Source: Flavivirga amylovorans
Lineage (GTDB): Bacteria > Bacteroidota > Bacteroidia > Flavobacteriales > Flavobacteriaceae
Direction of reading: 5' to 3'
DNA: 64,000 nucleotides
NCBI RefSeq assembly: GCF_030540875.1
Contig: NZ_JAUOEM010000009.1
Location: forward strand, 1-64,000
In this document: piece after piece, positions 13,568 through 33,464 of the stretch
How positions within the stretch are numbered: the stretch's first letter is position 1
Layout of the letters: each line of letters begins with the position of its first letter
Program-made: the position numbers and the translations under genes
Notes under the pieces: model-generated
Database searches by the model: none
The model's input: only the letters and a program-made list of their open reading frames with translations
Told to the model about the DNA's origin: nothing

Positions 13568-13622
13568 CAAAGGTGCGAGATAAAATTTATTTATAATGGA
13601 TAAATACTTGTCTTAAAGGGAT
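13568..13622 (-). promoter_or_regulatory. R1: 21-bp direct-repeat operator and -7 box upstream of MauE operon A
   Basis: GGAT at 13598 and 13619 (21 bp apart) in the context ACTTGTCTTAAAGGGAT. The complement of a TTTG -7 box (CAAAGG) starts at 13568, 30 bp from the proximal GGAT, and the ATG lies about 27 bases beyond. No -33 TTG is seen, which fits activator dependence. Confidence 0.75.
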
Positions 13623-14505
13623 TTATAAGAGCCTTGGTTTTGCGATACTTTGATCTCCCAATAAACTCAAGGCAGACTAGATTCAATATAAATTATAAAC
13701 AGAAAATAAAGAAATTTTAGTGTCATGTTGAAAATGTTACGATTGAGGCATCACATCATATTTTAGCATTAATATTTTTATGTTTTGCTTAATTTGATTC
13801 CTTTTTACTGATATTTTGCTACATCAGAATGTTAGAAAAGATTAAACTTTGAGTACTATTTTTATATAAACCTTAATATGGATATTTTTAATAAAAAGAA
13901 CTCCATTTCAGAAAGAAACGAACGGAACAAAGAATCTAGAATGCTTAAGTAATTATAAACCAAAAACAGATGTCTATTTGAGTCTTTCATTTTGTTTAGG
14001 ATAGACTAAATTGATGGGCCATCTTGAACAACTAGTTATTAAACGAGTTACATAGAAAATGCTGCTTTTTATGAGTTAAAGGGAACTAAACCAATCAAGA
14101 ATTTTTGTAAAAAAACAAGAATATAATTTACTATAATTATATTTTTTTTAAAATTATACCACCCACTTTTATTTTTTAGTTGTGTTTTCAATAGAACTCA
14201 TCTTGCCTCTCTCATATTCGAAGTACAAATGATGCTCTCACCCCAATTTTATCCTTGCTACTCTCTTAAGAGGAGCAAAAGGTAAGGGCAAACTGTTGCA
14301 GACAAACAGGTATGATTGTTTTAATTATAAACCCAAAAGTTGGGTTTGTGACCTTAAGATTTTTAATATAAAAACGCTAACTATTGAGTCGTTGTATTTT
14401 GTAAAAAATCAAAATTTACAAATATATAGAAAGGATCGTTTCCAAAAAGGTATTAAATAATTAAGAACTAAAATTAAATAACTAACAATTAAATAATCCT
14501 AAATT
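13623..14505. other. Divergent intergenic region between peptide operon A and module B
   Basis: About 880 bases with no convincing gene. It holds one copy of the dispersed element around TCATGTTGAAA...CGATTGAGGCATCACA (near 13720-13760), AT-rich tracts and a small hairpin (AAACCCA / TGGGTTT, 14329-14347). The promoter of the T9SS gene at 14506 must lie here, but no box is clear. Confidence 0.5.
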
Positions 14506-15666
14506 ATGAAAAAAATTGCAATTTTATTTACGGTGTTAACATTGGTTATAAACTCAGTTAGTGGTCAGACTATTTTTGATTGGGATACTAATGCCGTTGA
14601 CACAGGAACGAGTATAACCGAGGAGCTAGGAGGTTTAACCACTACCGTAACAAGTGATACAGCAGGTTCTTCATGGTTATTGACACCCTTTGGGTCTTTT
14701 GGAGGGTCATCAGGAGATGTTATTTTTAATTCGGCTGCTTCAGTGACTACAGTGACATTTACATTTAGCCAACCGGTAGTCGTCAATTCAATTCTGGCAA
14801 TAGAGGGTAATGCAGGTGACACCGTAGATTTTACGTTTACTCCGGATGGTGGTGATAATTTGGAAGTGGAAGCAACGCTAGCTGGCGGTTTTAAGGATGT
14901 TGATTTAAATTGGACTAATGTGACTTCCTTTACGGTAACAAAGACAGGTGGTGGCTTTGCATTTGATAATTTATCGGTATATCCTATCGATCCTCCTACT
15001 ATTTTTGATTGGGATACTAATGCCGTTGACACTGGAACGAGTATAACCGAGGAGATAGGAGGTTTAACCACTACCGTAACAACTGATACAGCAGGTTCTT
15101 CATGGTTATTGACACCCTTTGGGTCTTTTGGAGGGTCATCAGGAGATGTTATTTTTAATTCGGCTGCATCAGTAACTACAGTGACATTTACATTTAGCCA
15201 ACCCGTAGTCGTCAATTCAATTCTGGCAATAGAGGGTAATGCAGGGGGCACCGTAGATTTTACGTTTACTCCGGATGGTGGTGATAATTTGGAAGTGGAA
15301 GCAACGCTAGCTGGCGGCTTTAAGGATGTTGATTTAAATTGGATCGATGTGACTTCCTTTACGGTAACAAAGACAGGTGGTGGCTTTGCATTTGATAATT
15401 TATCGGTATATCCTATTTCAACATTATCGGTTACAGATAATTATAGATTTCAAAAAGCTGTAGTATATCCAAACCCAGTAGAAAACATACTTTACATTAA
15501 AAATATTTCAGGTTTAAAATCTATTGATGTTTATAATAACTTAGGGCAAAAGGTTTTCCAAAGCAATACCGAAAGTATAGATGTTGGGCATCTGTCAAAG
15601 GGTATGTATTTTTTACAGATACACACCGATCAAGGCACAGAGACTAAAAGGGTTATTAAAAAGTAA
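14506..15666 (+). CDS. T9SS-secreted protein with two 143-residue repeats, copy B
   Basis: 386 residues: signal peptide 1-21 (MKKIAILF...VSGQ), two near-identical repeats at about 22-164 and 165-307 (DNA period 429 bp), then a type IX secretion sorting domain (about 308-386). Each repeat begins TIFDWDTNAVDTG and ends FAFDNLSVYPI. The last motif recalls beta-sandwich domains that end in FDDV or FDNL, as in some carbohydrate-binding or anchor domains, but no known family is certain. It begins the copy B module and is followed by susC after 350 bases. Near-identity of the DNA repeats implies recent expansion or ongoing gene conversion. Confidence 0.85.
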   Translation: MKKIAILFTVLTLVINSVSGQTIFDWDTNAVDTGTSITEELGGLTTTVTSDTAGSSWLLTPFGSFGGSSGDVIFNSAASVTTVTFTFSQPVVVNSILAIEGNAGDTVDFTFTPDGGDNLEVEATLAGGFKDVDLNWTNVTSFTVTKTGGGFAFDNLSVYPIDPPTIFDWDTNAVDTGTSITEEIGGLTTTVTTDTAGSSWLLTPFGSFGGSSGDVIFNSAASVTTVTFTFSQPVVVNSILAIEGNAGGTVDFTFTPDGGDNLEVEATLAGGFKDVDLNWIDVTSFTVTKTGGGFAFDNLSVYPISTLSVTDNYRFQKAVVYPNPVENILYIKNISGLKSIDVYNNLGQKVFQSNTESIDVGHLSKGMYFLQIHTDQGTETKRVIKK

Positions 15667-16016
15667 TTGCTAATATAAATAATAATAGAAGAAAGTAAAA
15701 AAGGATTCATTTAGAGAAGTGTATTGAAAACCAATTTGTAATAATGTTTGAAGCGGTTGGTTACTTAGCATTTTCTTAGATACTTTTAGTAAGTCTTTGT
15801 TTTTTTAAACTTTTTGTTCAAGCAAAAAGATGGTTAGAATCATTAAGAATAAAAAAGGTATAAGAATAAATTTACCCTAACGGCTAGAGTAAAAATTAAA
15901 CAAATTTAAAAACAAAAAGGAGGAAAAAAGTTGACACTGTGAGACGTAACAAACTGGATTTCCCCCTTAAGAATGTATTAATCAATTAAAATAATCAACT
16001 AATTACATGTAAATTT
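15667..16016 (+). other. Spacer between T9SS gene and susC B, with conserved susC leader
   Basis: 350 bases without a gene. The last 100 or so (15918-15998 best conserved) match the leader of susC A. The first 240 or so have no counterpart in copy A, where the leader follows the T9SS stop codon after about 20 bases. Either copy A lost this segment, possibly with a promoter, or copy B gained it. Confidence 0.55.
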
Positions 16017-19000
16017 ATGAAAATTAGATTAACTCAAGTCTTTTTCTGTCTAAGAAAAGACCCCATAAAACTCATTATGCGAACTTTTATATTTTTGTTT
16101 TGCACCACATTGTTTGGTTTTTCACCAAGACATGCAGTATCCCAAAACGATAGGATTGTCATAGATACAGATCAAGTGGTATCTGTTGACAAGGTTTTTA
16201 AGATAGTGAAGGCACAAACCAATTATTCATTTGTTTATTATGAAAATTTATTTAAGGACTATCCCAAGGTCGCGCTCAAAAAAGGGGCGATCCGTCTTAA
16301 TAAGTTATTAACTCACAGCCTTTCATCGGGCAGAGTCCATGTTATCTTTACAGCTAATAATACCATTCTTATAAAAGAGCGTACAAGCAAAACCAAAGCG
16401 CAGCAGCTCTCTGTTTCTGGTATTGTAATGGGACCATCAGGCCTTCCAGTCTCAGGGGCAACGGTTTTAATAAAAGGGACCCGAAAAGGAGCAGTTACCG
16501 ATTTAGACGGCCGGTACGTTATCACAGTACCAGACCCTGCCAGTGTACTGATTTTTTCCTCATTAGGTTTTGAAACACAGGAAAAAGTGGTAGGTAATCA
16601 AACCACAATAAATGTGAATCTTAAAGAAAATATAAGTGCTTTAGATGCGGTAACCATTCGTGCGGGCTATTATAATACGTCCCAAAGAGAAGTAACAGGA
16701 AGTATTAGTAAGATCGATTCAAAAATCATAGAAAAGCAACCTGTCAACAATCCTTTGGCAGCCATGCAGGGGCATATGCCAGGAGTTAACATTTCGCAAA
16801 GATCTGGAACACCAGGAGGGGGCTTTAATATAGAGATTCGAGGGAAGAACTTTATAGGCAGTAATACGGAGCCTTTTTATATCATAGATGGGGTACCCTT
16901 TAGCACGGAGGCAATAGGACAAAACTTGTCTAACCCTGCGATCTCTTTGGGTAATGTCCTCCCCTTAAATGCGATAAACCCCTCGGATATTGAAAGTATC
17001 GAGGTTTTAAAGGATGCCGATGCTACGGCTATTTACGGTTCTCGAGGAGCCAATGGCGTGGTACTGATTACCACTAAAAGAGGCAAGTCAGGAAAGACCC
17101 GTGTGAATGCGAATGTAAGTAGCACAGTTGGTAAGGTCAGTAGTTTTGTAGATTTAATGAATACGGAGCAATATTTAGAGATGCGACTAGAAGCGCTATC
17201 TAATGAGGGTTATACTTTAGAAACGGCCCCTGATGATTTTAAAGCTCGAGCGCACGATTTATACAGATGGGATCCAGACCGGTATACAGACTGGCAGGAG
17301 GAGCTTTTAGGTGGTACGTCCTATAGACATAATGTCCAATTGTCCTTTTCAGGGGGCAGCGAACAGACACAGTTTTTAATTAGTGGGGGTTACCAAAATG
17401 AGACCACGGTATTTCCAGGAGACTCAAACTATGGTAAGGTCTCATTAAATAGTAGGATCAACCACCAATCGGCAGATGGCCGCTTCCAGATAAGTCTTTC
17501 GACAAATTATACCGCTGATGACAACCAACTTCCAGGTCAAGATTTAACAGATCTGGCCTATTCACTGGTACCCAATGCACCGGCGCTCTATGATGAGAAC
17601 GGGGATCTAAATTGGGAAAACTTTACCTGGGCAAACCCACTGGCCCGTTTAGAGGATCAGTTTCGGGCGCAGAACCGTACCCTTATCATGAACTCGGTGA
17701 TTTCCTATCGACCAGTTCCAGACCTGGTGATTAAAACCAATCTGGGTTATACGAGCTATAGCACAGAACAATATCTTACACAGCCACATACGCGCTTCGC
17801 CCCTGCTCCTAATAATACAAGTGAAAGATCAATACTTGTAAGCAATAATGCGACACGTCAATCCTGGATTGTGGAGCCGCAGGTTCATTGGCAAAAGGCA
17901 TGGGGCAAAGCGAGTTTTAATATCTTGTTGGGAGCGACCTTCCAGCAGCAGCAATCACAGGACCTCGCACTAGGGGCGTCCAATTTCCCGAGTAACAGTC
18001 AAATTTTGGATCTGTCAGCTGCAAATTTAGTAAACGTTCGATTAGATGCCGAATCGGAGTATAATTACCAGGCGTTCTTTGGGCGGCTTAATTTTAAATG
18101 GGCCGATAAATATATCATTAACCTGACAGGTCGTAGGGATGGTTCCTCCCGTTTTGGACCAGGCAGGCAATTCGGTAATTTTGGAGCTGTTGGTATGGCA
18201 TGGCTGTTTACAGAGGAAGGCTTTTTGGAAGGACAATCTGTTTTAAGTTTCGGAAAGCTTCGTAGCAGTTATGGTATTACGGGTAGCGATGGGATACCAA
18301 ATTACGGATTTTATGATACCTATGAATCTTCAGGCCGTGACTACGACGGCTCTGTTTTAGAGCCTACCGGACTGTTCAATCCGATCTTTGGCTGGGAATC
18401 AAACAAGAAGTTTGAAGCCGCCTTGGAGCTTGGTTTTTTTCAGGACCGTATCTTTGTCACGGCTGCATGGTACCGTAACCGGTCTTCCAATCAACTGGTG
18501 GGGATTCCCCTGCCCAGAACGACGGGCTTTTCCAGTATTAATGCGAACTTTGATGCTACTGTGGAGAACACTGGTTTAGAAGTCGACTTTCGTTCTGTAA
18601 ACATCCAAAACAAGGGTTTTAAGTGGACCACGACCTTTAATATCTCGGTACCCAAAAATAAGCTGGTAAAGTTTGATGGCCTGGAAGCATCCACTTTTAG
18701 AGATCGTTATATAGTGGGGGAGCCTTTGAGTATAGTTAAACTGTATCATAATCTTGGAGTAGACCCAGAGACGGGGATATACCAGTTTGAAGATTATAAT
18801 AATGATGGAGAAATAGATAGAAAAGATCGTCAATGGATTGTACAGACGGCTCCTAAGTTTTATGGCGGCTTGGGCAATACTATAAAGTACAAGAACTGGA
18901 CCTTGAATGCCTTTTTGAATTTCAAGAAGCAAAGTGCATCGGATCTTACTTTTAATGCACGATCCCCTGGAAGTTTAACAAATCAACATGTCTCGGTATT

Positions 19001-19331
19001 AAACCGCTGGCAGGGAGTTGGAGACCAGGCCGGGATACAGCGTTATATCACATCATTGGCCGATTTTAATGCGAGATTAGCTTTTAGTAATGATTTTGAT
19101 AGTAGCAGGCGTTATACAGACGCCTCCTTTATCAGGCTTAGAAGTGTCTCCTTGAGCTATGACCTGCCTAAGGATCTTGTCTCTGGCTTTAATGCTAGTA
19201 TCTATCTTCAAGGGCAGAATCTTTTCTTTCTTTATTCTAATTCTAGAAATGCTGATGCAGAACAGGTATTGGAAGGTACAAGGATGCCTTTATTGCGGCA
19301 ATTGACCTTGGGTCTGCAATTGGGTTTTTAA
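16017..19331 (+). CDS. SusC/RagA-type TonB-linked outer membrane protein with STN domain, copy B
   Basis: 1104 residues, the same length and architecture as copy A: signal peptide, STN (about 46-118), carboxypeptidase-D-like domain, plug and barrel. Long stretches are identical to copy A at the DNA level, notably from about 18060 to 18770. Differences cluster in short patches: NLSNPAISLGN for ELSEAAVSLNN in the plug, ASNFPSNSQ for GVSFPSNSQ and RFAPAPNN for RYTPSRNL in barrel loops, and NDGEIDRKD for SDGSINIDD. These are probably surface-exposed or ligand-facing, so the two transporters may differ in ligand. Confidence 0.95.
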   Translation: MKIRLTQVFFCLRKDPIKLIMRTFIFLFCTTLFGFSPRHAVSQNDRIVIDTDQVVSVDKVFKIVKAQTNYSFVYYENLFKDYPKVALKKGAIRLNKLLTHSLSSGRVHVIFTANNTILIKERTSKTKAQQLSVSGIVMGPSGLPVSGATVLIKGTRKGAVTDLDGRYVITVPDPASVLIFSSLGFETQEKVVGNQTTINVNLKENISALDAVTIRAGYYNTSQREVTGSISKIDSKIIEKQPVNNPLAAMQGHMPGVNISQRSGTPGGGFNIEIRGKNFIGSNTEPFYIIDGVPFSTEAIGQNLSNPAISLGNVLPLNAINPSDIESIEVLKDADATAIYGSRGANGVVLITTKRGKSGKTRVNANVSSTVGKVSSFVDLMNTEQYLEMRLEALSNEGYTLETAPDDFKARAHDLYRWDPDRYTDWQEELLGGTSYRHNVQLSFSGGSEQTQFLISGGYQNETTVFPGDSNYGKVSLNSRINHQSADGRFQISLSTNYTADDNQLPGQDLTDLAYSLVPNAPALYDENGDLNWENFTWANPLARLEDQFRAQNRTLIMNSVISYRPVPDLVIKTNLGYTSYSTEQYLTQPHTRFAPAPNNTSERSILVSNNATRQSWIVEPQVHWQKAWGKASFNILLGATFQQQQSQDLALGASNFPSNSQILDLSAANLVNVRLDAESEYNYQAFFGRLNFKWADKYIINLTGRRDGSSRFGPGRQFGNFGAVGMAWLFTEEGFLEGQSVLSFGKLRSSYGITGSDGIPNYGFYDTYESSGRDYDGSVLEPTGLFNPIFGWESNKKFEAALELGFFQDRIFVTAAWYRNRSSNQLVGIPLPRTTGFSSINANFDATVENTGLEVDFRSVNIQNKGFKWTTTFNISVPKNKLVKFDGLEASTFRDRYIVGEPLSIVKLYHNLGVDPETGIYQFEDYNNDGEIDRKDRQWIVQTAPKFYGGLGNTIKYKNWTLNAFLNFKKQSASDLTFNARSPGSLTNQHVSVLNRWQGVGDQAGIQRYITSLADFNARLAFSNDFDSSRRYTDASFIRLRSVSLSYDLPKDLVSGFNASIYLQGQNLFFLYSNSRNADAEQVLEGTRMPLLRQLTLGLQLGF

Positions 19332-19366
19332 ATTAAAAAAACATAAAAAACAATAATTATAAACCT

Positions 19367-20806: not shown

Positions 20807-20836
20807 ATAAGTTTTTATGAAGGTAATAATCTCATT

Positions 20837-20890
20837 AAGAGGCAGCCCCTAAAAGAAGTTACAAACATAAAGGGAACCCTCTTTTCTTTT
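20837..20890 (+). terminator. Terminator after susD, copy B
   Basis: Same imperfect stem as at 5831-5885, followed by CTTTTCTTTT. Here it closes the plus-strand module. Confidence 0.5.
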
Positions 20891-21748: not shown

Positions 21749-21776
21749 AAAAGGTGACCAAAATTAGTCACCTTTT
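21749..21776 (-). terminator. Intrinsic terminator of peptide operon B
   Basis: AAAAGGTGAC pairs with GTCACCTTTT around an 8-base loop, 18 bases after the peptide stop codon; a minus-strand T-run follows. Confidence 0.8.
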
Positions 21777-21793
21777 CCTTGATAAAACTATTA

Positions 21794-22084: not shown

Positions 22085-22107
22085 AATATAGATATTTAAA
22101 AATTAAT

Positions 22108-22145
22108 GACCTACTCTATTTTACAGGTTTTCGGTCTTATCCCTG
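22108..22145 (-). promoter_or_regulatory. Conserved leader with pseudoknot-like complementarity, peptide 2
   Basis: Same interleaved CAGG/GACC/CCTG/GGTC element as at peptide 1, with identical spacing. Confidence 0.4.
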
Positions 22146-22157
22146 ACTGCAGTATTT

Positions 22158-23279
22158 TTATTTAATTTGAGAATATGTTATTTTTTGGTCTATGGTCTCT
22201 TTCAAGGCAGGTTCTAGCTTATTAAAGCGATATGTGCTTAGTTGATAAATAACAATATGATTGCCGATCATTGCAATAAGTTTATCATTAAGCACTTGAA
22301 ATGTTTTTAATTTGTCTTTCCCTATGTTATAGACATAAAAACTGAACTCATAGGTGTTTTCTTCAATGTTGTAGACATCAATAATAGAGGCCTGTTCCCA
22401 CATGTCAATAGGTTCGTACCGGCCTATCAATTTGGAGTTTACAAAAAGGTAGGAGCCATACGTAGCACTGTATTTGTTTACTAATAGGGCAGGAGCTGCC
22501 ATTTTCAGTTGATTTTTGGAAGCTATAGTCCCCACTTTTATTTGGGCACGGCTTATTGTGTCTATGGTTTTTCCCAGGCGTTTCAATTCCAGATTTTTAT
22601 CTGCGACGATATATTGGTTGCGATAGAAGTAGGTATACACCAATTTTTGTAACTGCCTATTATATAGAAGGGAACCATCAGTATCAAAAACACCATCTAT
22701 TTGTTTTTGTAACAATTCGTAGGAGAGATCCACCTTAAGGGAGTCCACAAGATTTATTTTGCCAAGGACACTTTCCTTTGTTTTATTGCTTGTAGCCTTA
22801 ATGATAAAATTAGTAGAATCTATAGGCTCTATTTTTGAAAAATAAGCGGGTCCGTCCATGATAGAACTAGCTATCCAATCGGTAGTATTGCCTCTATATA
22901 TGTAGGGTATCACACCGTCAGTGAGAAAGAAATAAGGGGGAACAACCCGTAGCCTTATAGCGTGAAAGGGTAGACTGTCCTGATCCACAGATAAGGAGAT
23001 CTCCTTTTTGTTTTGAAGCGCAGTGTCCAGTACTGTTAGACGTAGAGGTGCAGTTGTATTTCCCAGGTAAATCTGTCCATTGTCAGCTCCGGCGATATAA
23101 TAGGAATTGTATTTAAGATCTAACTTTTTGGCTTGTATAGCAGGATGTCCCGAAAGACGTCGTGTAAAACTATTGTCACGATGTATTTTTTTTTCTGAAG
23201 AAATAAATAATAAGGCAATAAACCCGATACTTCCAAGAGTGCATATTAAAAGAGGTATATAAGTTTTATTATATTTCAT
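22158..23279 (-). CDS. Membrane-anchored propeller-like protein, copy B
   Basis: 373 residues, differing from copy A at three positions (Ile for Thr in the WTASS segment, Tyr for Phe in VNKFSA, Ala for Leu in EPLLKE). One N-terminal membrane segment and a beta-rich outer domain. Its ATG overlaps the TGA of the MauE-like gene. Strong conservation of this protein beside a diverging peptide suggests it recognises the shared parts of the peptides or acts generally on them. Confidence 0.7.
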   Translation of the reverse strand: MKYNKTYIPLLICTLGSIGFIALLFISSEKKIHRDNSFTRRLSGHPAIQAKKLDLKYNSYYIAGADNGQIYLGNTTAPLRLTVLDTALQNKKEISLSVDQDSLPFHAIRLRVVPPYFFLTDGVIPYIYRGNTTDWIASSIMDGPAYFSKIEPIDSTNFIIKATSNKTKESVLGKINLVDSLKVDLSYELLQKQIDGVFDTDGSLLYNRQLQKLVYTYFYRNQYIVADKNLELKRLGKTIDTISRAQIKVGTIASKNQLKMAAPALLVNKYSATYGSYLFVNSKLIGRYEPIDMWEQASIIDVYNIEENTYEFSFYVYNIGKDKLKTFQVLNDKLIAMIGNHIVIYQLSTYRFNKLEPALKETIDQKITYSQIK

Positions 23280-23731
23280 AAGGAGGCATATTTTGGGGTG
23301 CTGTAATTTTTTTGTCCGTTCATTATTTGGATTCCTATAAAAGCGAGTATAACAAAGGCGATATTAAAGATTAGATGTTCTGTCCACCCTAATTTTTCAA
23401 GAACACCTCCACAGGAACAAGGAATAGACTTACTGAAATTCAAAATAATGAATATATAGGCGGTGAACATGACCATAAGGGAAAAGGAGGCATAAAGTCC
23501 CAATAGTCTGAATCGAGGAACGATTAACATCACTGCGATGATAATTTCAAGATAAGGTACAGTCCATGCTACCAAACCAGCATATGCTGTCAATACGGGG
23601 GACTGTCCAATCTGAATTATAAATTCGTCAAAGACCAGCAACTTGTTCATTGCAGCATATACAAACAAGAGTATATATAGGAAACAAATAAATTCTAAAA
23701 AAGCGTTTTTATATTTACCACTAATTTTCAT
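23276..23731 (-). CDS. MauE/DoxX-family redox-associated membrane protein, copy B
   Basis: 151 residues from ATG 23731, four membrane helices, motif CSCGG, and only a few conservative differences from copy A (Val for Ile, Ala for Val). First gene of operon B, 27 bases from promoter R2. Inferred role: disulfide supply to exported cysteine peptides, working with the coupled propeller protein. Confidence 0.8.
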   Translation of the reverse strand: MKISGKYKNAFLEFICFLYILLFVYAAMNKLLVFDEFIIQIGQSPVLTAYAGLVAWTVPYLEIIIAVMLIVPRFRLLGLYASFSLMVMFTAYIFIILNFSKSIPCSCGGVLEKLGWTEHLIFNIAFVILAFIGIQIMNGQKNYSTPKYASL

Positions 23732-23757
23732 AAAAGATGAATTGTTTATTGACAATA

Positions 23758-23812
23758 CAAAGGTGCGAGATAAAATTTATTTATAATGGATAAATACTTG
23801 TCCTAAAAGGAT
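23758..23812 (-). promoter_or_regulatory. R2: 21-bp direct-repeat operator and -7 box upstream of MauE operon B
   Basis: GGAT at 23788 and 23809; complement of the TTTG box (CAAAGG) at 23758. Same 21 and 30 bp geometry as R1. Confidence 0.75.
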
Positions 23813-23908
23813 TTGTTAAATTTTAATTACTAAATAATTTGCTTAGAAAATGGTAATAGCATTATAAAAATGTGGAAATAGCTTTAATTACAGTGATTCA
23901 CGAACTTG

Positions 23909-24509: not shown

Positions 24510-24788
24510 TTAAGGTCTATACAATACTCTTGTACAACTAGTTGCAGAAGAATATTGTAATCCAAAAACTTGACTTGGAGTACCTACTCCAACAGTGCAT
24601 TCTTGGTCACTTCCAGTAGAACATATGATTGACTCATCACATCCTACTATGAATCCTGTTTCATCTAAGACTTGGATGTACCCTTGAACTAGAGAAGTAT
24701 CATTAGCAGGGGTAAAAGCAAGTGAAGCTGTGACAGCTAACATAAGAGCAAAAGCAGGTGGAACGATTTTAAAAAAAAATGTTTTCAT
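24510..24788 (-). CDS. Small secreted four-cysteine peptide (DUF6520-like), copy 4
   Basis: 92 residues. Signal peptide MKTFFFKIVPPAFALML...SLAFT, then CDESIIC, CTVGVGTPSQVFG and SCTRVLYRP. It is the most diverged of the four in its leader DNA, yet the leader spacing is unchanged. Promoter R3 lies about 310 bases upstream. It carries no accompanying MauE gene and presumably relies on those of operons A and B. Confidence 0.75.
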   Translation of the reverse strand: MKTFFFKIVPPAFALMLAVTASLAFTPANDTSLVQGYIQVLDETGFIVGCDESIICSTGSDQECTVGVGTPSQVFGLQYSSATSCTRVLYRP

Positions 24789-24812
24789 GATAATAAATAT
24801 TTAAAAATTAAA

Positions 24813-24850: not shown

Positions 24851-25761
24851 GATGTAGTTTGGTTTACTGGAATACCAGTTTATTTTTTATGTCTAGGTGT
24901 TATGTTAGAAGACCGTATAGAGACTTAAACAATATTATTTACAAGGGTTCTATTCTCAAAGACAGCTGTCTTTAGTTTTTATATTGCAAAGAAGAATGCT
25001 GTATGGAATTAAAATTGAATAATTTGATTAATACTACAGAAAAACACTAACATTATTATAGATTTATGATAATCAATAACCAGTTATATAATAATTACAT
25101 AAAAATACATGATAAAATTTATTTTTAATGGATTAATACTTGTCTGAGAAGGATAAGTTCTCCTCTGAGAAGTAAGATTTTAAATAAAAGAAGATCCAAC
25201 CTATTGGTATTAAACTTTATAAATAAAGAACATTTTTTGTAAGTATCATGTCGAAAGAGGTATGATTGAGATATCACATAAGGTATTGAGCATATGTTTC
25301 ATAAATTATGTGATTTCTCATTGCATTCGAAATGACACGGAATATAAAATTATATTTAAGTAATCATGTCGAAGTGAGGCGCGATTGAGACATCTCATCT
25401 CATAGATTTATGCTATTATGATTCTATAATTTCTCATGGAGTTTATCTTGAGCTTGGATTACACTAAACTTGCCGAGGGGTCGAAAGATTAAAAATAACA
25501 TAACAAGTAAAACAAAACCTAGATATTCAAAATTAATAGTTGGTTTTTTAGATTCTTGTTAACTACAAAAAGTCTCTATTCTTGATTCTAAGAACAAAGC
25601 AGTCTTAACTTTTCAATACCATATTAGCTTAAAAAGAAAAACCAGAGCACATTCGTTTATGAAAAGAATTCTAAAAATTTAAGAAAAGATTTTGCTTTGG
25701 CTTTCTTTTGGGGCTTCTATATGATAAAGCCTTAACAACGTCCATAGATTACTATATACTA
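24851..25761. other. Intergenic region with R3 and dispersed repeats
   Basis: About 910 bases without a gene. It contains promoter R3 (25100-25154) and two copies of the dispersed element ATCATGTCGAA...GCGATTGAGACATCTCAT (near 25244 and 25365). Nothing else is recognised. Confidence 0.5.
25100..25154 (-). promoter_or_regulatory. R3: 21-bp direct-repeat operator upstream of peptide genes 4 and 3
   Basis: GGAT at 25130 and 25151. The -7 position at 25100 reads TAAAAATA (minus strand TATTTTTA), the weakest box of the set, still at 30 bp. Confidence 0.65.
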
Positions 25762-26382
25762 TTATAACGTAATAAGAGGTAAATTGTCAAGTTTGGATAA
25801 GGACTCATTTGATTTTATCTGTTTTACTAGGTCATCTCTTTTAATACCAAAGGCACTAGATAGGTAATGAAGCTGTGTTTTTTCTCCTGTGGAGTCCTTT
25901 GGTGTTGTAAAAAAACAATGCCAGTGTTCACCACAATCAATAATTCTGGCAACCGATTTAAAATCTTTTTTCGAAAATTCAGAGATATATTGACTTAAGG
26001 TGTATCCAAATTCATGATATGCAGTAAAAATAAAAGACGTTAAAGTTTCCAGAGGAAGAAAGAACCCATCAAGTAGTTTTTCCTGATCTTTTTTCTTGTC
26101 AGTTTTTAAAAGCTGCATTAAATTTTCAGGAACTTTTATTTTTTGGAAGTCACTTTTTAGCTTTAACCATTGTATATGGGCACTTTTAAGTATTTCGTTA
26201 CTCGTTGTAGTCAATTCTTTTTCACCAGTCATTTCCTCTTTAGAAACCCCATTTAAAATCATTTGTTTTGCAATAATATCATTTTCGTATTGTTTAATAG
26301 GGTTTTTCATTTCGAATTCCTCGTCATCAAATACGATATGTTTCTTGCTAGTCTTTTTATGTGTTAAAATACGGTATTTCAT
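25762..26382 (-). CDS. Hypothetical cytoplasmic protein, member of the R regulon
   Basis: 206 residues, not recognised. No signal peptide or membrane helix; charged N-terminal half (KKTSKKH, KKDQEK) and a C-terminal half with aromatic and His/Cys residues (IIDCGEHWHCFFTTPKD). The ATG at 26382 is 30 bases from promoter R4, and R5 lies a further 300 bases upstream. Being under the same promoter type as the peptide operons is the only clue to its role; it could be a cytoplasmic immunity or regulatory factor, but nothing in the sequence shows this. Confidence 0.65.
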   Translation of the reverse strand: MKYRILTHKKTSKKHIVFDDEEFEMKNPIKQYENDIIAKQMILNGVSKEEMTGEKELTTTSNEILKSAHIQWLKLKSDFQKIKVPENLMQLLKTDKKKDQEKLLDGFFLPLETLTSFIFTAYHEFGYTLSQYISEFSKKDFKSVARIIDCGEHWHCFFTTPKDSTGEKTQLHYLSSAFGIKRDDLVKQIKSNESLSKLDNLPLITL

Positions 26383-26411
26383 TTCTTATTTAGATTGAGG
26401 ATAACTACTTA

Positions 26412-26466
26412 CAAAATTCGTAAATAAAACTTAATTCAAAAGGATAAAAAATTGTCTTAAAGGGAT
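26412..26466 (-). promoter_or_regulatory. R4: 21-bp direct-repeat operator and -7 box upstream of the 206-aa gene
   Basis: GGAT at 26442 and 26463; CAAAATTC (minus strand GAATTTTG) at 26412, giving the standard 30 bp. The gene starts 30 bases downstream. Confidence 0.75.
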
Positions 26467-26849
26467 TTGTTAGTGAGACTCGATTTTGAGAAGACCATAG
26501 GACGAATTCAAAATCGTAAGTCGAACTAATCCCGCCTACAGCGGGATCCCAAAAACTCAAATAGCTTGTGCTGAACTCGTTTCAGTATTTCAGTATTTCA
26601 ATTTCAGTATCTAATGAGGACTGAAGTTTATATTCTTTATTATAATCTATTAATAAGGGCATTAAAACTGGGTAGCTTAATTTGAAAAGTAATTCAGGAC
26701 AACCGTAAATTAGTACTACCCAGCTTAGGGGGATTATATATAAGTTAATTTAAATTTTCGTTTACAAATGTAGATAACGGTAGTTAACTTACTAGGAGTA
26801 AAAGTTACCTTAGAGGGATTAATTCTGTCTGAATCTAAAACAAGACGTA
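26467..26849. other. Intergenic region with R5
   Basis: No gene. Holds a hairpin (ATCCCGC / GCGGGAT, 26529-26547), a short ATTTCAGT direct repeat near 26580-26610 and promoter R5. Confidence 0.5.
26765..26819 (-). promoter_or_regulatory. R5: direct-repeat operator with perfect TAnnTTTG box
   Basis: Half-sites GGAG at 26795 and GGAT at 26816; CAAATGTA at 26765 is the complement of TACATTTG, a perfect -7 consensus, at 30 bp. It reads toward R4 and the 206-aa gene. Confidence 0.65.
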
Positions 26850-28310
26850 TAACTTATTCATTCAATCAGTTTGAGAATGTCTCTTGCTTGAATCTCCCTG
26901 TCATGTCGACGGTAGGAGAAATCTCAGCCTTATGGGATTTCTCGTCATTCGTTCCTCATTCTGTCGAAATGACAAACGTGTGAATTTTGAGGTACGATAA
27001 AAATGTATCGAGACCTAATAAAAGTAATAATTATGATGAATTCTCGATACATTCCAATGAAAAATTGGAACACTCAAACTGACCTGTCATTATTTAATTA
27101 TGAATTAAAATTGTACCTCGTAGTTATGTCGACATGATGTACGATTAAGACAAAAAGAAGTTCCTGTGTCATGCTGAGCTAGTCGAAGCGAAAATTGAAG
27201 TTAAAATGAAACTTTATTATGTATATATATTAATCTGTTTATTCAATTAGTTTGAGAATGTGATTTTTACTTGAACCTCCCTGTCATGTCGACGATAGGA
27301 GACATCTCATCCTTATGGGATGTCTCGTTATTCGTTCCTCATTCTGTAGAAATGACAAGGGTGTGAATTTTGAGGAACGATAAAAATATATCGAGACCTA
27401 ATAAAAGTAATAATTATGATGAATTCTCGATACATTCCAATGAAAAATTGGAACACTCGAACTGACCTGTCATTATTTAATTGTGAATTAAAATTGTACC
27501 TCGTAGTTATGTCGACATGATGTACGATTAAGACAAAAAGAAGTTCCTGTGTCACGCTGAGCTTGTCGAAGCGAAAATTGAAGTTAAAATGAAACTTTAT
27601 TATGTATATATATTAATCTGTTTATTCAATTAGTTTGAGAATGTGATTTTTACTTGAACCTCCCTGTCATGTCGACGATAGGGGACATCTCATCCTTATG
27701 GGGTGTCTCGTCATTCGTTCCTCATTCTGTCGAAATGACATACGTGTGAATTTTGAAGAAAAATAAAAATGTATCGAGACCTAATAAAAAGTAATGATTC
27801 TGATGAGTTCTCGATACATTCAATGAAAAATTGGAACACTCAAACTGACCTGTCATTATTTAATTATGAATTAAAATTGTACCTCGTAGTTATGTCAACA
27901 TGATGTACGATTAAGACAAAAAGAAGTTCCTGTGTCATGCTGAGCTAGTCGAAGCGAAAATTGAAGTTAAAATGAAACTTTATTATGTATATATATTAAT
28001 CTGTTTATTCAATTAGTTTGAGAATGTGATTTTTACTTGAACCTCCCTGTCATGTCGACGATAGGAGACATCTCATCCTAATGGGATTTCTCGTCATTCG
28101 TTCCTCATTCTGTCGAAATGACAAACGTGTGAATTTTGAGGAACGATAAAAATGTATCGAGACCTAATAAAAAGTAATGATTCTGATGAGTTCTCGATAC
28201 ATTCCAACGAAAAATAGGAATACTCGAACTGACCTACCATTATTTAATTGTGAATTAAAATTGTATCTTGTAGTCATGCAGACATGAGATACGATTAAGG
28301 CATGACATTT
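26850..28310. repeat. Tandem array of a 383-bp unit, about 3.8 copies
   Basis: The landmark TCATGTCGAC recurs at 26901, 27284, 27667 and 28050, exactly 383 bp apart each time. Units are about 95 percent alike by eye. Each unit contains nested inverted repeats: GTCATGTCGA with TCGAAATGAC, GAGACATC with GATGTCTC, and GTATCGAGA with TCTCGATAC. There is no conserved open frame. The last unit decays after about 260 bases. Promoter R6 points into the array from the right. Confidence 0.9.
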
Positions 28311-28385
28311 AAGTAAGTCTATTAAAAATATAAATAACTTTGAAATGTTAAGACTAACCTAAAGAAAACATCAGATTTTCTGTTT

Positions 28386-28448
28386 AATTTCAGTTACGCT
28401 CAACCCCCAGAATCCCTATAAAAAAGTTGATCGGGCGCAACCGAAATT
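28386..28448. repeat. Hairpin element downstream of R6
   Basis: AATTTCAGTTACGCTCAAC and GTTGATCGGGCGCAACCGAA can pair imperfectly over about 19 bp. Related to the elements at 28661, 28981 and 33311. Confidence 0.6.
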
Positions 28449-28463
28449 AGATATCAGACTGAA

Positions 28464-28518
28464 CAAAGATCGATGATAAGATTTAACTGAAAAGGATTAA
28501 AACTTGTCCTTAAAGGAT
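28464..28518 (-). promoter_or_regulatory. R6: 21-bp direct-repeat operator and -7 box facing the 383-bp array
   Basis: GGAT at 28494 and 28515; CAAAGATC (minus GATCTTTG) at 28464. Standard geometry. Followed by a hairpin and then by the array, with no gene for over 2 kb. Confidence 0.7.
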
Positions 28519-28660
28519 GTCTTATAAGTCTGGTTTATAAATAGATATGTTCATGTTTTAATTTGTCCAACTTTGGAGATATGACTGCGTTAACAGCAAA
28601 AAAATATCGTAGTATATTATTTATAAAATGGGGCTTGGTTCGTGTATCTATTGAGTCTAT

Positions 28661-28740
28661 TTTTCTTTTTTGTTTCGGCTACGCGCAATCGGAAGAAATC
28701 CAGTAAATGGTTGATTGGGCGCAACCGAAGTCAAAAAGAC
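28661..28740. repeat. Hairpin element downstream of R7
   Basis: TTTCGGCTACGCGCAATC (28674) against GATTGGGCGCAACCGAAG (28714), extended by TCTTTTTG-type arms. Confidence 0.65.
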
Positions 28741-28758
28741 AAAAATTACTAACCACTA

Positions 28759-28813
28759 CAAATATCGAGGATAAGATTTAACTTAAAAGGATGAAAAATT
28801 ATCCGAAAAGGAT
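28759..28813 (-). promoter_or_regulatory. R7: 21-bp direct-repeat operator and -7 box in gene-free region
   Basis: GGAT at 28789 and 28810; CAAATATC (minus GATATTTG) at 28759. The downstream hairpin starts about 20 bases from the box. Confidence 0.7.
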
Positions 28814-28980
28814 GTCTTTTTGTTTGGTTTATATTGTAGGTATTTAACATCAACTAAAGTTGGGATATTATTAATAACTAAGGTTAAATAATGTCTTCGA
28901 CTACGCTCCTTTAGACTGACATAGAAGGATAGGTATATGCTTAGTTGACAAGATTGATTAAAAGAAAAAGATACTTTCTT

Positions 28981-29055
28981 TTTTTTGTTTCGGCTACGCA
29001 CAATCGGAAGAAATCCAATAGATGGTTGATTGGGCGCAACCGAAGTCAAAAAGAC
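28981..29055. repeat. Hairpin element downstream of R8
   Basis: TTTCGGCTACGCACAATC (28988) against GATTGGGCGCAACCGAAG (29028). Nearly the same as the element at 28661. Confidence 0.65.
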
Positions 29056-29073
29056 AAAAATTACTAACCATCA

Positions 29074-29128
29074 CAAATATCGAGGATAGAGTTTAATTTT
29101 AATGGATTAAAACTTAACTGAAAAGGAT
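29074..29128 (-). promoter_or_regulatory. R8: 21-bp direct-repeat operator and -7 box in gene-free region
   Basis: GGAT at 29104 and 29125; CAAATATC at 29074. Standard geometry. Confidence 0.7.
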
Positions 29129-29200
29129 TTAACGATATCGTGTTGGTTTTATAGAAAAGAGTAAGGCTATCCAAAAAAGGCATAGTAATTTTAACTTGTT

Positions 29201-29815
29201 AGGTCGAGTGTTTTAAAATGTATCGAAACCTAATTAAAAGTAACAATTCTGATGAGTTCTCGATACATTCCGATGAAAAAATCGGAATACTCGAACTGAC
29301 ACTGAATGTGAAATTGTGTTTTGTTGTCATGTCGACGATAGGAGATATCACATTAAAGAAAATATAGTTATTAATTATGTGATTTCTCCATTCCGAATAG
29401 TTATTGAAAATGTTCAAAGTAATTTGAAATAATATCAAGTTGTCAGGTCGAGTGTTTTTTGAGGAACGATAAAAATGTATCGAGACCTAATTAAAAGTAA
29501 TGATTATGATGAGTTCTCGATACATTCCGATGAAAAAATCGGAATACTGAACTGACACTGAATGTGAAATTGTGTTTTGTTGTCATGTCGACGATAGGAG
29601 ATATCACATTAGAGAAAATATAGTTATTAATTATGTGATTTCTCCATTCCGAATAGTTATTGAAAATGTTCAAAGTAATTTGAAATAATATCAAGTTGTC
29701 AGGTCGAGTGTTTTTTGAGGAACGATAAAAATGTATCGAGACCTAATTAAAAGTAACGATTATGATGAGTTCTCGGTATATTCCGATGAAAAAATTGGAA
29801 TACTCGAATTGACAA
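29201..29815. repeat. Tandem array of a unit of about 250 bp, 2.4 copies
   Basis: AGGTCGAGTG recurs at 29201, 29445 and 29701 (spacing 244 and 256). The unit shares the GTATCGAGA...TCTCGATAC inverted repeat and the GTCATGTCGACGATAGGAGA block with the 383-bp array, so both derive from the same dispersed elements. Confidence 0.85.
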
Positions 29816-30378
29816 GTAGATATGTTGTTTTATACTTGTTTAAAATATACGTCAACAGTAGCTTGTCGAAAAAAACGTTGATTATTAAATAGTTGAAATA
29901 TTTCGACAGGCCCCAATATGACATTCGTTTTACTTTTCTGGAAGGCTTCAAGTTTAGTTTAAGAACCTTGTTATAATAAGTATATATTTTTAAAAAATTT
30001 GTTTGTCAGAGCAAAGCGAACCTGCCTGCCGCACAATGTCATTAAGTTAAAGGAATTTATTTTATTTTGTCACGTTGAGCGCAGTCGAAATGCTATTGAA
30101 AGCAAGTAGTTTAAATGTCTTCGATAAGCTATGCTTGCTACTTTCATAACAAAACATGTTTTGTTATTCAGTAATGCTCAAAATGACACCACAGTCTTAA
30201 CTTAATGACATTGGCCTGCCGCAGGCAGGGAATCTCATAACACTTCTTAGATCTATTGAAAAATCAATGTTTTACATCGTTTCTGTATTTGTAGAATTAC
30301 TGATAAAGCGAAAAACGTTTTTTAGATTCTTCAGTCGTTCCTTCTTCTGACAAAGCAATTTACTAAATAGGAGATCTT
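29816..30378. other. Gene-free tail of the repeat region
   Basis: No gene. Besides the inverted-repeat element at 30021-30229, only AT-rich sequence and dispersed GTCGAAATG fragments are seen. Confidence 0.5.
30021..30229. repeat. MITE-like element with long inverted ends, about 209 bp
   Basis: The left end reads CCTGCCTGCC...AATGTCATTAAGTTAA (30021-30050); the right end is its inverted counterpart, TTAACTTAATGACATT...GCAGGCAGG (30197-30229). The inside contains a TCACGTTGAGCGCAGTCGAA block. No coding capacity. A related half-element, CCTTAACTTAATGACGTTG, lies near 33606. Confidence 0.6.
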
Positions 30379-33066
30379 TTAAAAATTATTAAACTTCCAA
30401 TTAAAACTAAACATAAAGTATTGTTTAAGAACCGTGCTTTGAGAATCTTGAATGTAGTTTTGGGTCGCAATACGCCTGGCGTTTGTGTTTTGATTTAATA
30501 AGTCATAAATTTTTAAAGATAAAGTTCCCTGATCTTTAAACATAGTATAAGCCAGAGTTGTATTCCAAAACCAGGCACTTTTTTGAAAGCCTTCTCCAAC
30601 ATTAGGATTATAATTAAAATTTATATCGTGCCGCCATTCGAAATTTTTGGGAACGAATGTTGTTATTTGTAATCCAGCCGAATGATTAATAAACTCCTGG
30701 TTTTCAAAATCATCTAAATCAAAGGTGGTTTTGTTAAATGATAGTCTGTAGTTGGGGACAATCATCATAACGTTATCCCATGCAAAAGTAATGCCTAGAT
30801 GTGGTGTTAAAGCCGTATTGTTTGAAGCATATTGTACGTCATTATTAAAGTTAACAGATTTGTTTATACTTGCAGAGAGCCCCACATTATATTTAAATGT
30901 TTTTAAACTATCTATTTTTATTGTCTTGTTGTAACTGCTACTGGCACTTAAAGTATAGCCACCATCTACATTAGAATAACTGGTGTTTCGAACAAAATTT
31001 TCGTCTATAGTTGTTTTAGTGACTATTTGGTTATTACTTAAATTGGCATAGATATAGCTAAAGAAACCGTTGCGTTTTTGAAAGTTGAATGTATTATACC
31101 CAAAATAAAAACTATGCGTGTTTGTGGGTTTTAGATTTGGATTACCTGTCACCGTATTTAGGGGGTTAGATATATCTTGAAAGGGTTGTAGTTGTGACAG
31201 TTGTGGTGGGACGTTGTCTAGGCCATAGCTAGCGTATGCATAAGATTTTGGATTGAATTGATACTGAAAATTCGATCGTAATTCGATGGTTTCAAAGTTA
31301 CGAGCTAAACTTAACTGAGGTCTTAAAAGGTCATTATTCTGTAAGCTCCTAAATACGTATCCTGCTTCAGAACTAACAGACCATTTTTCTTTTTTATAAG
31401 CAAGTCTTAAAGCTGGTGTGCTCCTTTTGTTCGTATATTTAAAATCGGTGCTCAGTTCTTCATCAAATTGAGTGAAATCTTGTGTGTTTGGATCAAAGGC
31501 GAAAGTACTTTTAATGTTTTGCTGTTTGTCATGCCTGTAATTAAATTTAAGGTCTAAAAACAATGCTTTTGATAGTAAAGGCCATCTGAAAGTAGTACTT
31601 GTATTAATACTTTTTGATTTTTGATCCCCATCTGTAAATTGATCCCTATTAATAGTTTCTGGATTATCTCCAAAAATGGCAATTTCAGTGTTTAAAAAGT
31701 CATCTGATTCTATAACATTATAGGTGTTTGAGATATTAAATCTTAAATAAGCTCCTTTTTTACCAAAACGCTTTGTAATACTTAAATGATTACTAAAATT
31801 TTTATTTAAAGCTTCTGAAAATGAAGATGTACTGGATTGATTTGTTAACGTGTTTTCTTCATCTCTGGATGCTTCACTTCCCGAAGTTTCGGTATTATTT
31901 TTAGAAACATTAAATGATGGATTAATATGAATTAAAAGTGTGGAATCTAACTCGATATTAAATCCTAGATTAACATTGTGATTATCACTTTCACTATATG
32001 ATTTTGTGTTAGAATTGGAATTGTATCTCGAATCTGGGAGAATATTTACACGTTGCACAGTGTTCTCGTTTTCAGTACTACTATTAGAGAAAAAATAATT
32101 GGAAGAGATATCGCTCTTGTCTTTTAATTTGTCAACGTAATTAGCGCCATAATTTTGTGATACTGTAATGCCCTGACCGTTTGTAAGTCCACCTCCAAAG
32201 CTAAAACCAGGTGAATTAATGTTATTTCCTCCAGCAAGAAGACTAATACGCTGATCGTTATTAAAAAGGTTAAGCATCCCAGCAAATTTATAACGCTTAT
32301 CTGTTCCGATGCCAGTTGCTACTTGCCCAAAAACACCATCGTTGTTTTCTTTTTTAATAACGAGGTTAATTGTTTTTTTCTCTCTATCTCCTTCGTCTCC
32401 AGCAAAAGCTTCAGCCTTTGTTTTTGTATCTGTAATCTGGATGTTCTCAATAATTTCCTTACTTAAATGTCTGGTCGTAATAGTGGGGTCGTTGCTAAAA
32501 AAAGGTTTTCCGTTTACCAAAATGTTATCTACTTCTTTACCATTTATGGTTATTTTCCCTGCTTCATTAACATCAACTCCTGGTAACTGTTTTAATAAAT
32601 CTTCAACATTAGCGTCTTTTTTTGTTTTAAAAGATGAAGCATTAAATTTTAGGGTGTCTTTTTTTATAACAACTGGAGGACTGACTTTTATAAAAACTTC
32701 CTCTAAAGCATTAAGATCAGTTTTTAAGCTAATGGTTTTTAAATCGGTAATTTCTTGGTCTAAATGAATTGTTTGATAATGGGTTTGATACCCTACATAC
32801 GAGACATAAAAGTTTAAATGAGTATCGGTTGTTTTACCTTCTAAAGAAAATATACCATTTTTATCTGAAATAGTGTAGGTAACTAGTGAGCTGTCCTTAA
32901 CACGTTCTAAATAAATGGTAGCAGCTTCTAAAGGTATTTTGTCTGTTTCAGAAATGAGTGTTCCAGAAATTTTAAACGGTTTTGTCTGTGCGAAAGATGC
33001 CGTCAGGTAAAGTATTGTAAATACAAAAAAACAATATTTCACACGTTTAAGTTTATTAACTGGCAA
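30379..33066 (-). CDS. Outer membrane beta-barrel / TonB-receptor-like protein
   Basis: 895 residues: signal peptide (ending ASFAQ), carboxypeptidase-regulatory-like domain (about 30-115, VSYVGYQTHY), a plug-like segment (LLKQLPGVDVNEAGKITINGKEVDNILVNGKPFF, given in parts) and a large barrel of the OMP_b-brl_3 type ending in aromatic FNWKFNNF. The frame opens at TTG 33066 just after a stop codon; GTG 33042 is an alternative start, and no ATG is available. A paralogue lies at 51148-53922. Promoter R9 and a leader hairpin lie 340-400 bases upstream, so it belongs to the R regulon. Ligand unknown. Confidence 0.85.
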   Translation of the reverse strand: MPVNKLKRVKYCFFVFTILYLTASFAQTKPFKISGTLISETDKIPLEAATIYLERVKDSSLVTYTISDKNGIFSLEGKTTDTHLNFYVSYVGYQTHYQTIHLDQEITDLKTISLKTDLNALEEVFIKVSPPVVIKKDTLKFNASSFKTKKDANVEDLLKQLPGVDVNEAGKITINGKEVDNILVNGKPFFSNDPTITTRHLSKEIIENIQITDTKTKAEAFAGDEGDREKKTINLVIKKENNDGVFGQVATGIGTDKRYKFAGMLNLFNNDQRISLLAGGNNINSPGFSFGGGLTNGQGITVSQNYGANYVDKLKDKSDISSNYFFSNSSTENENTVQRVNILPDSRYNSNSNTKSYSESDNHNVNLGFNIELDSTLLIHINPSFNVSKNNTETSGSEASRDEENTLTNQSSTSSFSEALNKNFSNHLSITKRFGKKGAYLRFNISNTYNVIESDDFLNTEIAIFGDNPETINRDQFTDGDQKSKSINTSTTFRWPLLSKALFLDLKFNYRHDKQQNIKSTFAFDPNTQDFTQFDEELSTDFKYTNKRSTPALRLAYKKEKWSVSSEAGYVFRSLQNNDLLRPQLSLARNFETIELRSNFQYQFNPKSYAYASYGLDNVPPQLSQLQPFQDISNPLNTVTGNPNLKPTNTHSFYFGYNTFNFQKRNGFFSYIYANLSNNQIVTKTTIDENFVRNTSYSNVDGGYTLSASSSYNKTIKIDSLKTFKYNVGLSASINKSVNFNNDVQYASNNTALTPHLGITFAWDNVMMIVPNYRLSFNKTTFDLDDFENQEFINHSAGLQITTFVPKNFEWRHDINFNYNPNVGEGFQKSAWFWNTTLAYTMFKDQGTLSLKIYDLLNQNTNARRIATQNYIQDSQSTVLKQYFMFSFNWKFNNF

Positions 33067-33310
33067 TGAATTAATTTAGTAATATGGAATTTGTAGGAGC
33101 AAGTAACTCCCACGCTAGACTTTTTAAAAGCTAATAAAAATGAGTGCCTCTTTATACAAACTTGTGATGAATAGCCTTGTTTTTTGATATGAAAGTTGAT
33201 TTTTGAGCCCATGCTATAAGTCTTTATAGAGGCTGTCGTTTTGTTAGTAATTAATGAAATGGTTATCAATGGGCGCTATGGATTTATTGTTTAGTACTAG
33301 AAATTTTGTT

Positions 33311-33382
33311 CTTTTCAAATCCAGTTACGCTCAACATCTAAAATCCCAATAAAGTTGACTGGGCGCAACCGAAGTTGAAAAG
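33311..33382 (-). promoter_or_regulatory. Leader hairpin between R9 and the receptor gene
   Basis: CTTTTCAAATCCAGTTACGC (33311) pairs imperfectly with TGGGCGCAACCGAAG...TTGAAAAG (ending 33382). It starts about 20 bases from the R9 -7 box and would fold early in the transcript. The same fold follows R6, R7 and R8. Confidence 0.55.
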
Positions 33383-33409
33383 ACAACTAACTAACTAACA
33401 ACTATATGG

Positions 33410-33464
33410 CAAATATCGATGATAGAATTTAACTCAAATGGATTAAAACTTATCTGAAAGGGAT
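33410..33464 (-). promoter_or_regulatory. R9: 21-bp direct-repeat operator and -7 box upstream of the receptor
   Basis: GGAT at 33440 and 33461; CAAATATC (minus GATATTTG) at 33410. It lies between the AraC-type gene and the receptor gene. Confidence 0.75.

Follow-up and report, generated by a model that had tools for sequence, protein, structure and literature searches.

Why should one stretch of bacterial DNA carry the same promoter layout nine times, and what protein reads it? The stretch (the window) comprises 64,000 nucleotides (nt) from the flavobacterium Flavivirga amylovorans, positions 1 to 64,000 of contig NZ_JAUOEM010000009.1. The layout is a pair of short direct repeats followed at a fixed distance by a promoter box, and its nine instances are called here R1 through R9. 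Close by, at 33708-34709, lies a gene for a protein with a PAS fold and a DNA-binding domain of the AraC type (PAS-AraC). I put at roughly 80% the chance that R1-R9 are the promoters of a single regulon, bound and activated by this protein. The evidence comes from comparing sequences, and the following sections take it step by step.

Nine sites with one geometry

Each site, read on the minus strand, consists of ATCC-N17-ATCC, a repeat with a period of 21 base pairs (bp), and a TTT(G/A) box at a constant offset: the last C of the proximal ATCC and the last base of the box are 30 bp apart in 9/9 sites. The initial annotation had placed nine such sites, plus a tenth (R10, at 37143) having the 21-bp pair but no box, and all ten are where it put them, with the distances it gave. 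It also noted one half-site reading GGAG amongst the GGATs, which is the proximal half-site of R5 (CTCC on the minus strand). Its description of the box as TTTG-type holds for eight of the nine sites and fails for R3, which has TTTA.

The arrangement is well beyond chance. On its two strands the window holds 12 instances of GGAT-N17-GGAT, as compared to 1.32 expected, and none of 100 dinucleotide shuffles reaches 12. Nine of the 12 pairs lie on the plus strand and are R1-R4 and R6-R10, while the three on the other strand are unrelated. When CAAA is also demanded at the offset of the box, 7 instances are found against 0.00 expected from dinucleotide shuffles, R3 and R5 being the two of the nine sites that lack the exact full pattern. 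Not all sites stand before protein genes. R1, R2, R4 and R9, for example, do, but no protein gene follows directly behind R6, R7 or R8.

The nine sites are not the whole regulon, either. A 73-column sequence model built from R1-R9 finds, in the 4.86-Mb genome of this strain, the nine sites, R10, and four further sites outside the window at E <= 1.4e-6. Sites of the R1-R9 type are carried by 12/12 of the Flavivirga-like genomes searched, this one included, with the other 11 giving 9-33 matches each at E <= 0.1 (best E 1.3e-15 to 1.2e-18). Outside the genus, 18 of 28 genomes gave weak matches, none below E 1e-3. The order of the cluster is largely syntenic within the genus: R10, DUF7793, PAS-AraC, R9, receptor gene, R8-R7-R6-R5, R4 with a gene of 206 amino acids (aa), peptide genes, MauE operon. 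By manual assignment, R6, R8 and R9 are present and in order in 12/12 genomes, R7 likewise in 7, and R5 is present in 11. The receptor block is inverted in one relative (G007).

It was set as a test beforehand whether the motif is a dispersed repeat, indifferent to position. The outcome speaks against that idea: 55/55 sites outside the main cluster that score at least 28 are intergenic, as against 851/2040 random 38-mers from the same loci. These distant sites were taken among the matches listed to E 9e-7 in genomes G001, G003-G005 and G007-G010, together with the four of this genome; one of the 55 (L098) is G008's counterpart of R10, which lies there on a different contig, and in one locus (L094) no position reaches a matrix score of 22.

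Which protein reads the site?

The candidate nearest at hand is PAS-AraC, whose gene ends 244 bp from R9 (240 bases in the initial annotation). The protein, 333 aa long, has a C-terminal double helix-turn-helix of the AraC type (Pfam HTH_18, E 1.3e-19; Foldseek match 3oio). An AlphaFold2 model from a 26-row alignment (mean predicted local distance difference score, pLDDT, 80.5; predicted template-modelling score, pTM, 0.38) has N-terminal helices, a PAS fold, a linking helix and the AraC domain, and Foldseek returned PAS and AraC domains for it, although the pTM of 0.38 makes the arrangement of the domains unreliable. Pfam at E <= 0.01 gives AraC and PAS families and no LytTR domain. Nor does the protein resemble a hybrid two-component system, with Pfam and the model giving no kinase or receiver, just the PAS-like and AraC domains and helices. 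Genomes G003, G004 and G007 have two near-full-length copies of PAS-AraC, and the second copy in the window is in pieces.

When 147 other genera were sampled with one genome apiece, 14 of them had orthologues of PAS-AraC, at 31-45% identity. Their setting is recurrent: a divergent oxoamine synthase, DUF7793, PAS-AraC and MauE, often a propeller and a DUF6520 peptide, then SusD and SusC. The divergent neighbour in other genera is very frequently a protein like that encoded at 37326-39746, an alpha-oxoamine synthase fused to an acetyltransferase-like domain.

With a half-site matrix drawn from the window alone and 15 of the 16 outgroup AraC matches, the best pair lies at 21 bp in 13/14 gaps before DUF7793 and in 10/15 gaps between AraC and MauE. 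A larger set of 79 AraC loci, 71 when the 8 of the genus are left out, gives a similar picture, 21 bp being the best spacing in 58/64 gaps upstream of the DUF7793-AraC operon and in 47/62 AraC-MauE gaps. (The 71 include L160, a metagenome-assembled genome, or MAG, 76% identical and perhaps of the genus; MAGs of uncertain family such as L233; and L185, a paralogue from F. rizhaonensis with no measurable gap.) The box recurs as well. In 46 of the 48 AraC-MauE pairs scored, TTT(G/A) stands exactly 14 nt past the half-site, as in the window, and the remaining 2 have TTTC. As a control, in whole loci (all 79, genus included) 21 was the best spacing in 69/79 on the AraC strand versus 4/79 on the opposite strand.

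The comparison can be turned around. From 42 outgroup sites kept, 32 were modelled, with no locus of this genus among them. This blind model finds 15 sites in the F. amylovorans genome at E <= 0.01: R1-R10, the four distant sites, and one weaker. Across the genus, the 12 genomes yield 8-32 sites each. Searched in 12 of the 14 outgroup genomes that bear the AraC gene (all except G142 and G169), it gives 2-4 sites in 11 and none in G152; some of these outgroup matches, unlike those in F. amylovorans, arise by construction. In the 28 other genomes, weak matches appear in 6, all at E >= 0.001, and one of these 6 (G018) carries the AraC gene.

The earlier assignment of the regulon to the neighbouring PAS/AraC gene thus gains strong comparative support. 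An AraC protein is favoured over a LytTR protein because the repeat recurs beside orthologues of PAS-AraC and because the outgroup model recovers R1-R10 blind. Could the sites belong instead to some distant regulator, AraC or LytTR, with PAS-AraC a mere bystander? Other AraC-like proteins are likely to exist, the 16 matching genomes having given 9-59 candidates in a loose first look. Yet the site flanks PAS-AraC orthologues on both sides in many loci, the gene is of the AraC type by Pfam, and the one other regulator compared, the LacI protein at 40435-41565, was without a match in all 71 outgroup loci, a comparison confined to genes with a homologue in the window. I consider a distant regulator improbable. 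Outgroup genomes give few blind-model sites, so the ancestral regulon looks like about two sites, and it has apparently expanded within the genus to the 8-32 that are detectable.

Predicted RNAs behind R5-R9

If no protein gene lies directly behind R6-R8, then what does? Directly behind R5-R8 are predicted RNAs about 85-105 nt long, conserved, structured and apparently non-coding, which the initial annotation does not mention. Those behind R6, R7 and R8 are hairpins that begin about where transcription should start, and a related hairpin lies in the leader behind R9. The R5 RNA, found in 11 genomes, is unrelated to these and has a terminator-like stem. The sequence is highly conserved from about -60 to +75-90 at R6 and R8, and to +105 at R5, after which conservation drops (15-nt bins; +1 was set one base early, which leaves the profile unaffected). 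At R8 the stem is no better conserved than the 5' single strand.

A hairpin model built from 44 of 45 hairpins (one, R8b of G007, left out) finds 45 strong matches in the 12 genomes of the genus (E <= 1.8e-9), all of them the known hairpins behind R6-R9. The model also gives weak opposite-strand matches at the same places, and no match at E <= 0.01 in the 28 other genomes. Standard pairs fill 97.9% of the pair cells, a value reached by 1 of 500 shuffles. Rfam, searched with positions 25000-34000 of the window, returns 5 matches at E <= 1, all to microRNA models, with 23-24.5 bits as compared to 70-93 for curated thresholds.

Perhaps R6-R9 arose as copies of a hairpin repeat, mobile or dispersed, that brought the motif with it. 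They share downstream sequence, G007 has three near-identical copies of R8, and three weak hairpin matches occur elsewhere in relatives (G004, G005 and G010; E 2.7e-4 to 0.006). Against this, all 45 strong matches sit behind R6-R9, none is found in the 28 other genomes, and the sites hold their order as described above. The hairpin search and the intergenic test together disfavour a dispersed repeat, to the point that I regard it as very improbable. The region R6-R8 had no match in a phage collection.

Might the RNAs behind R7 and R8 encode peptides? This was rejected, because one base is missing from a T run in three sequences (R8 in L056 and L058, R7 in L065) and because no frame of at least 30 aa starting in the RNA is common to all. 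Frames of that length do start in 11/21 R7/R8 RNAs and 5/12 R6 RNAs, all with TTG, and in this genome one 88-aa TTG frame overlaps the R8 RNA.

It is also possible, though I doubt it, that the hairpins are attenuators or terminators of their promoters rather than small RNAs acting in trans. The R9 hairpin does lie inside the leader of a receptor gene, and the R5 RNA does end in a terminator-like stem. However, 27 of the 33 R6-R8 sites in the 12 genomes have no ATG frame of at least 60 aa that starts within 600 nt. For the remaining six, the frame begins 224-565 nt away and differs between genomes, three of them being the 206-aa gene that lies behind further sites. The conserved 5' single strand of R8 also speaks against an attenuator. 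The R5-R8 RNAs would be transcribed and, with the R9 leader, probably act as regulatory RNAs.

Between R5 and R6 (about 27000-28300), several similar units of about 380 bp, apparently non-coding, can be seen by eye in succession.

R10, a site without a box

The R10 pair is kept in 12/12 genomes of the genus, with no box at the canonical distance, a conservation that the initial annotation does not mention. In 67 scored loci (8 of the genus), the R10-type site has TTT(G/A) at 14 nt in only 6 and at 9 nt in 14, a contrast with the AraC-MauE site, where the 14-nt distance is nearly invariant. In 45/67 loci its distance to the matched oxoamine-synthase start is 65-70 nt, and in 19/67 a TAnnTTTG box stands 52-54 nt downstream, towards the regulator operon. 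R10 is most likely a conserved operator, through which PAS-AraC may regulate its own DUF7793-AraC operon, the divergent oxoamine-synthase gene, or both.

That divergent enzyme is a weak candidate for a quorum-sensing synthase, since the alpha-hydroxyketone synthase model scores 70 bits, below an unnamed subfamily (267 bits) and below BioF and two serine palmitoyltransferase models (147-159 bits). All of these models fall below their cut-offs.

A model of the switch

I propose that PAS-AraC, a soluble protein, would bind as two monomers, head to tail, on two 17-bp half-sites. With 4 bp between them the period is 21 bp, two helical turns, and the monomers would lie on the same face of the DNA. 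The sigma-A box of F. psychrophilum, TAnnTTTG, is at -12 to -5 (PMC9723704). If the boxes of R1-R9 occupy the same position, then the two half-sites span about -60 to -44 and -39 to -23, and the proximal monomer would cover the -33 region. There it would bring sigma-A RNA polymerase to the TAnnTTTG-type box, presumably in response to a ligand of the PAS domain. Only two of the nine sites, R4 and R9, have TTG near -33 (at -32). The core promoters of the other seven look weak and activator-dependent.

The same position can be read in the opposite sense, with the sites as operators at which the protein blocks RNA polymerase at -33 until its release switches the genes on. Coverage of the -33 region and the TTG of R4 and R9 fit such a repressor; the seven sites lacking TTG do not, and AraC proteins at such positions usually activate. 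Repression is therefore unlikely, though somewhat less so than a distant regulator.

Several other observations weigh against activation by PAS-AraC and against the RNAs tied to it. G152 and several AraC loci show no site. Some genera are represented among the outgroup AraC loci by several species, which makes those loci non-independent. Finally, covariation in the hairpins is not above that of shuffles, 71 of 500 reaching the same score.

The model suggests a history. In the ancestral state, the protein may have controlled about two sites, one at its own operon and one at an operon of MauE, propeller and DUF6520 peptide genes. Growth within the genus would then have taken in TonB/SusC receptors and, at R5-R8 and in the R9 leader, small RNAs arrayed in tandem.

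Genes and other features of the locus

Coordinates are collected in Table 1. The initial annotation had called the 373-aa protein of the MauE operons a propeller, and the structure model agrees: it is a beta-propeller with an N-terminal helix.

Table 1. Sites, predicted RNAs and genes of the locus
Feature	Position	Strand	Basis
R1, half-site pair and TTTG box, before MauE-propeller-peptide operon 1	13568..13623	-	sequence, pattern count
R2, half-site pair and TTTG box, before MauE-propeller-peptide operon 2	23758..23813	-	sequence, pattern count
R3, box TTTA, about 310 nt before DUF6520 peptide gene at 24510-24788	25100..25155	-	sequence
R4, box 30 nt before 206-aa gene	26412..26467	-	sequence, pattern count
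R5, proximal half-site CTCC, precedes apparently non-coding RNA	26765..26820	-	sequence
R6, half-site pair and box, precedes predicted hairpin RNA	28464..28519	-	sequence, pattern count
R7, half-site pair and box, precedes predicted hairpin RNA	28759..28814	-	sequence, pattern count
R8, half-site pair and box, precedes predicted hairpin RNA	29074..29129	-	sequence, pattern count
R9, half-site pair and box, hairpin leader then beta-barrel receptor gene	33410..33465	-	sequence, pattern count
R10, half-site pair without box, divergent gap between oxoamine-synthase gene and DUF7793-AraC operon	37131..37168	-	sequence, comparison
Predicted RNA behind R5, ends in terminator-like hairpin with U run, approximate ends	26661..26761	-	conservation, predicted fold
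Predicted hairpin RNA behind R6, approximate ends	28377..28460	-	conservation, predicted fold
Predicted hairpin RNA behind R7, approximate ends	28662..28755	-	conservation, predicted fold
Predicted hairpin RNA behind R8, approximate ends	28977..29070	-	conservation, predicted fold
Predicted hairpin in leader behind R9, approximate ends	33308..33406	-	conservation, predicted fold
MauE protein, candidate target of R1, likely start ATG at 13541	13086..13565	-	Pfam
MauE protein, candidate target of R2, likely start ATG at 23731	23276..23755	-	comparison
Membrane-anchored beta-propeller protein; copy at 11968-13089	22158..23279	-	structure model
DUF6520 peptide; similar peptides at 11613-11894, 21794-22084, 23969-24265	24510..24788	-	Pfam, comparison
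206-aa protein, candidate target of R4	25762..26382	-	no family found
Outer-membrane beta-barrel receptor OMP_b-brl_3, candidate target of R9	30379..33066	-	Pfam
PAS-AraC regulator: N-terminal helices, PAS fold 69-179, AraC DNA-binding domain	33708..34709	-	Pfam, AlphaFold, Foldseek
Second PAS-AraC copy, only as two pieces, 34781-35494 and 35539-35775	34781..35775	-	open reading frames, comparison
Second DUF7793 protein	35799..36260	-	comparison
DUF7793 protein, first gene of regulator operon	36393..36773	-	comparison

The candidate targets of the distant sites are DUF6520 peptide and MauE operons, SusC-like receptors, DUF547 and PHO4 genes, and one PAS-AraC paralogue (10 representative proteins were checked by Pfam, two of which have no family). 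The SusC-like receptors mostly have leaders of 28-30 nt; the DUF547 and PHO4 genes begin several hundred nt past their sites. At L116 (C1 near 203,000 in this genome), L103, L101, L108 and L084, about 350 nt of partly conserved sequence, which seems to end in a terminator-like stem, separates the regulon promoter from DUF547 or phosphate transporter genes. An Rfam search of nine loci with distant targets gave nothing at threshold.

A cassette of SusC, SusD, peptide, propeller and MauE genes occurs twice in tandem in the window, at 1-13565 and 14506-23755, the SusC proteins being 95% and the SusD proteins 98% identical. Conserved leaders on the minus strand (11918-11955, 22110-22145, 24291-24326 and 24815-24850) adjoin the starts of all four DUF6520-type peptide genes. 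Their complementary strands are interleaved, as in a pseudoknot, and this is kept in many loci, in other genera as well. The four match the Rfam family DUF805b weakly, with 17.2-19.7 bits against a gathering threshold of 35.6.

Relation to known regulators and significance

At the araI1-I2 site of AraC and at the sites of MelR and RhaS, tandem direct repeats have their proximal half over the -35/-33 element. The sites described here resemble these in their 17-bp half-sites, 21-bp period, orientation to the promoter, and linkage of the regulator gene to a target. They differ in having a Bacteroidetes-type -7 box, a PAS rather than a sugar-binding domain in the regulator, and peptides, receptors and apparent RNAs as targets. 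Closer to home are the hybrid two-component system (HTCS) regulators of Bacteroides, whose AraC-type members have predicted direct repeats of 16 + 5 or 12 + 9 bp, again a 21-bp period, and SusC/SusD targets (PMC3878776). By these repeats, the geometry in Flavivirga is of a known kind, but its regulator, at 333 aa, has no kinase or receiver domain that could be found.

The predicted RNAs recall small RNAs of Flavobacterium such as Rfp18, short, structured and conserved in the genus; no dedicated activator array like the present one is described for those in the portion of PMC9723704 used here.

Judged by comparison, the switch is ordinary in kind and well supported, and literature searches by title and abstract found no description of this regulon, nor, in the library searched, any paper on DUF6520 or NVEALA. 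The array of small RNAs makes the locus richer than it first seemed. Few small RNA families are known in this phylum, and the array points to possible new ones.

What, then, might the switch be for? A tentative answer, which I would not bet on, is that one PAS-AraC protein drives a new small RNA family (the R6-R9 hairpins) and the unrelated R5 RNA, along with secreted cysteine-bearing peptides, MauE redox-type proteins and TonB receptors. Once the switch fires, the RNAs would readjust the envelope, and the oxoamine synthase beside R10 might make the small molecule sensed by PAS. If that last point is true, the locus would be a module for cell-cell or metabolite signalling.

Whatever the signal, an uncharacterised, soluble PAS-AraC type of marine Flavobacteriaceae gains a proposed DNA site together with a promoter geometry and a target list, and any genome can be scanned with them. 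DUF6520 peptides and MauE-propeller operons would be tied to a single switch, and the comparison suggests that its regulon has grown from about two sites to dozens inside one genus.

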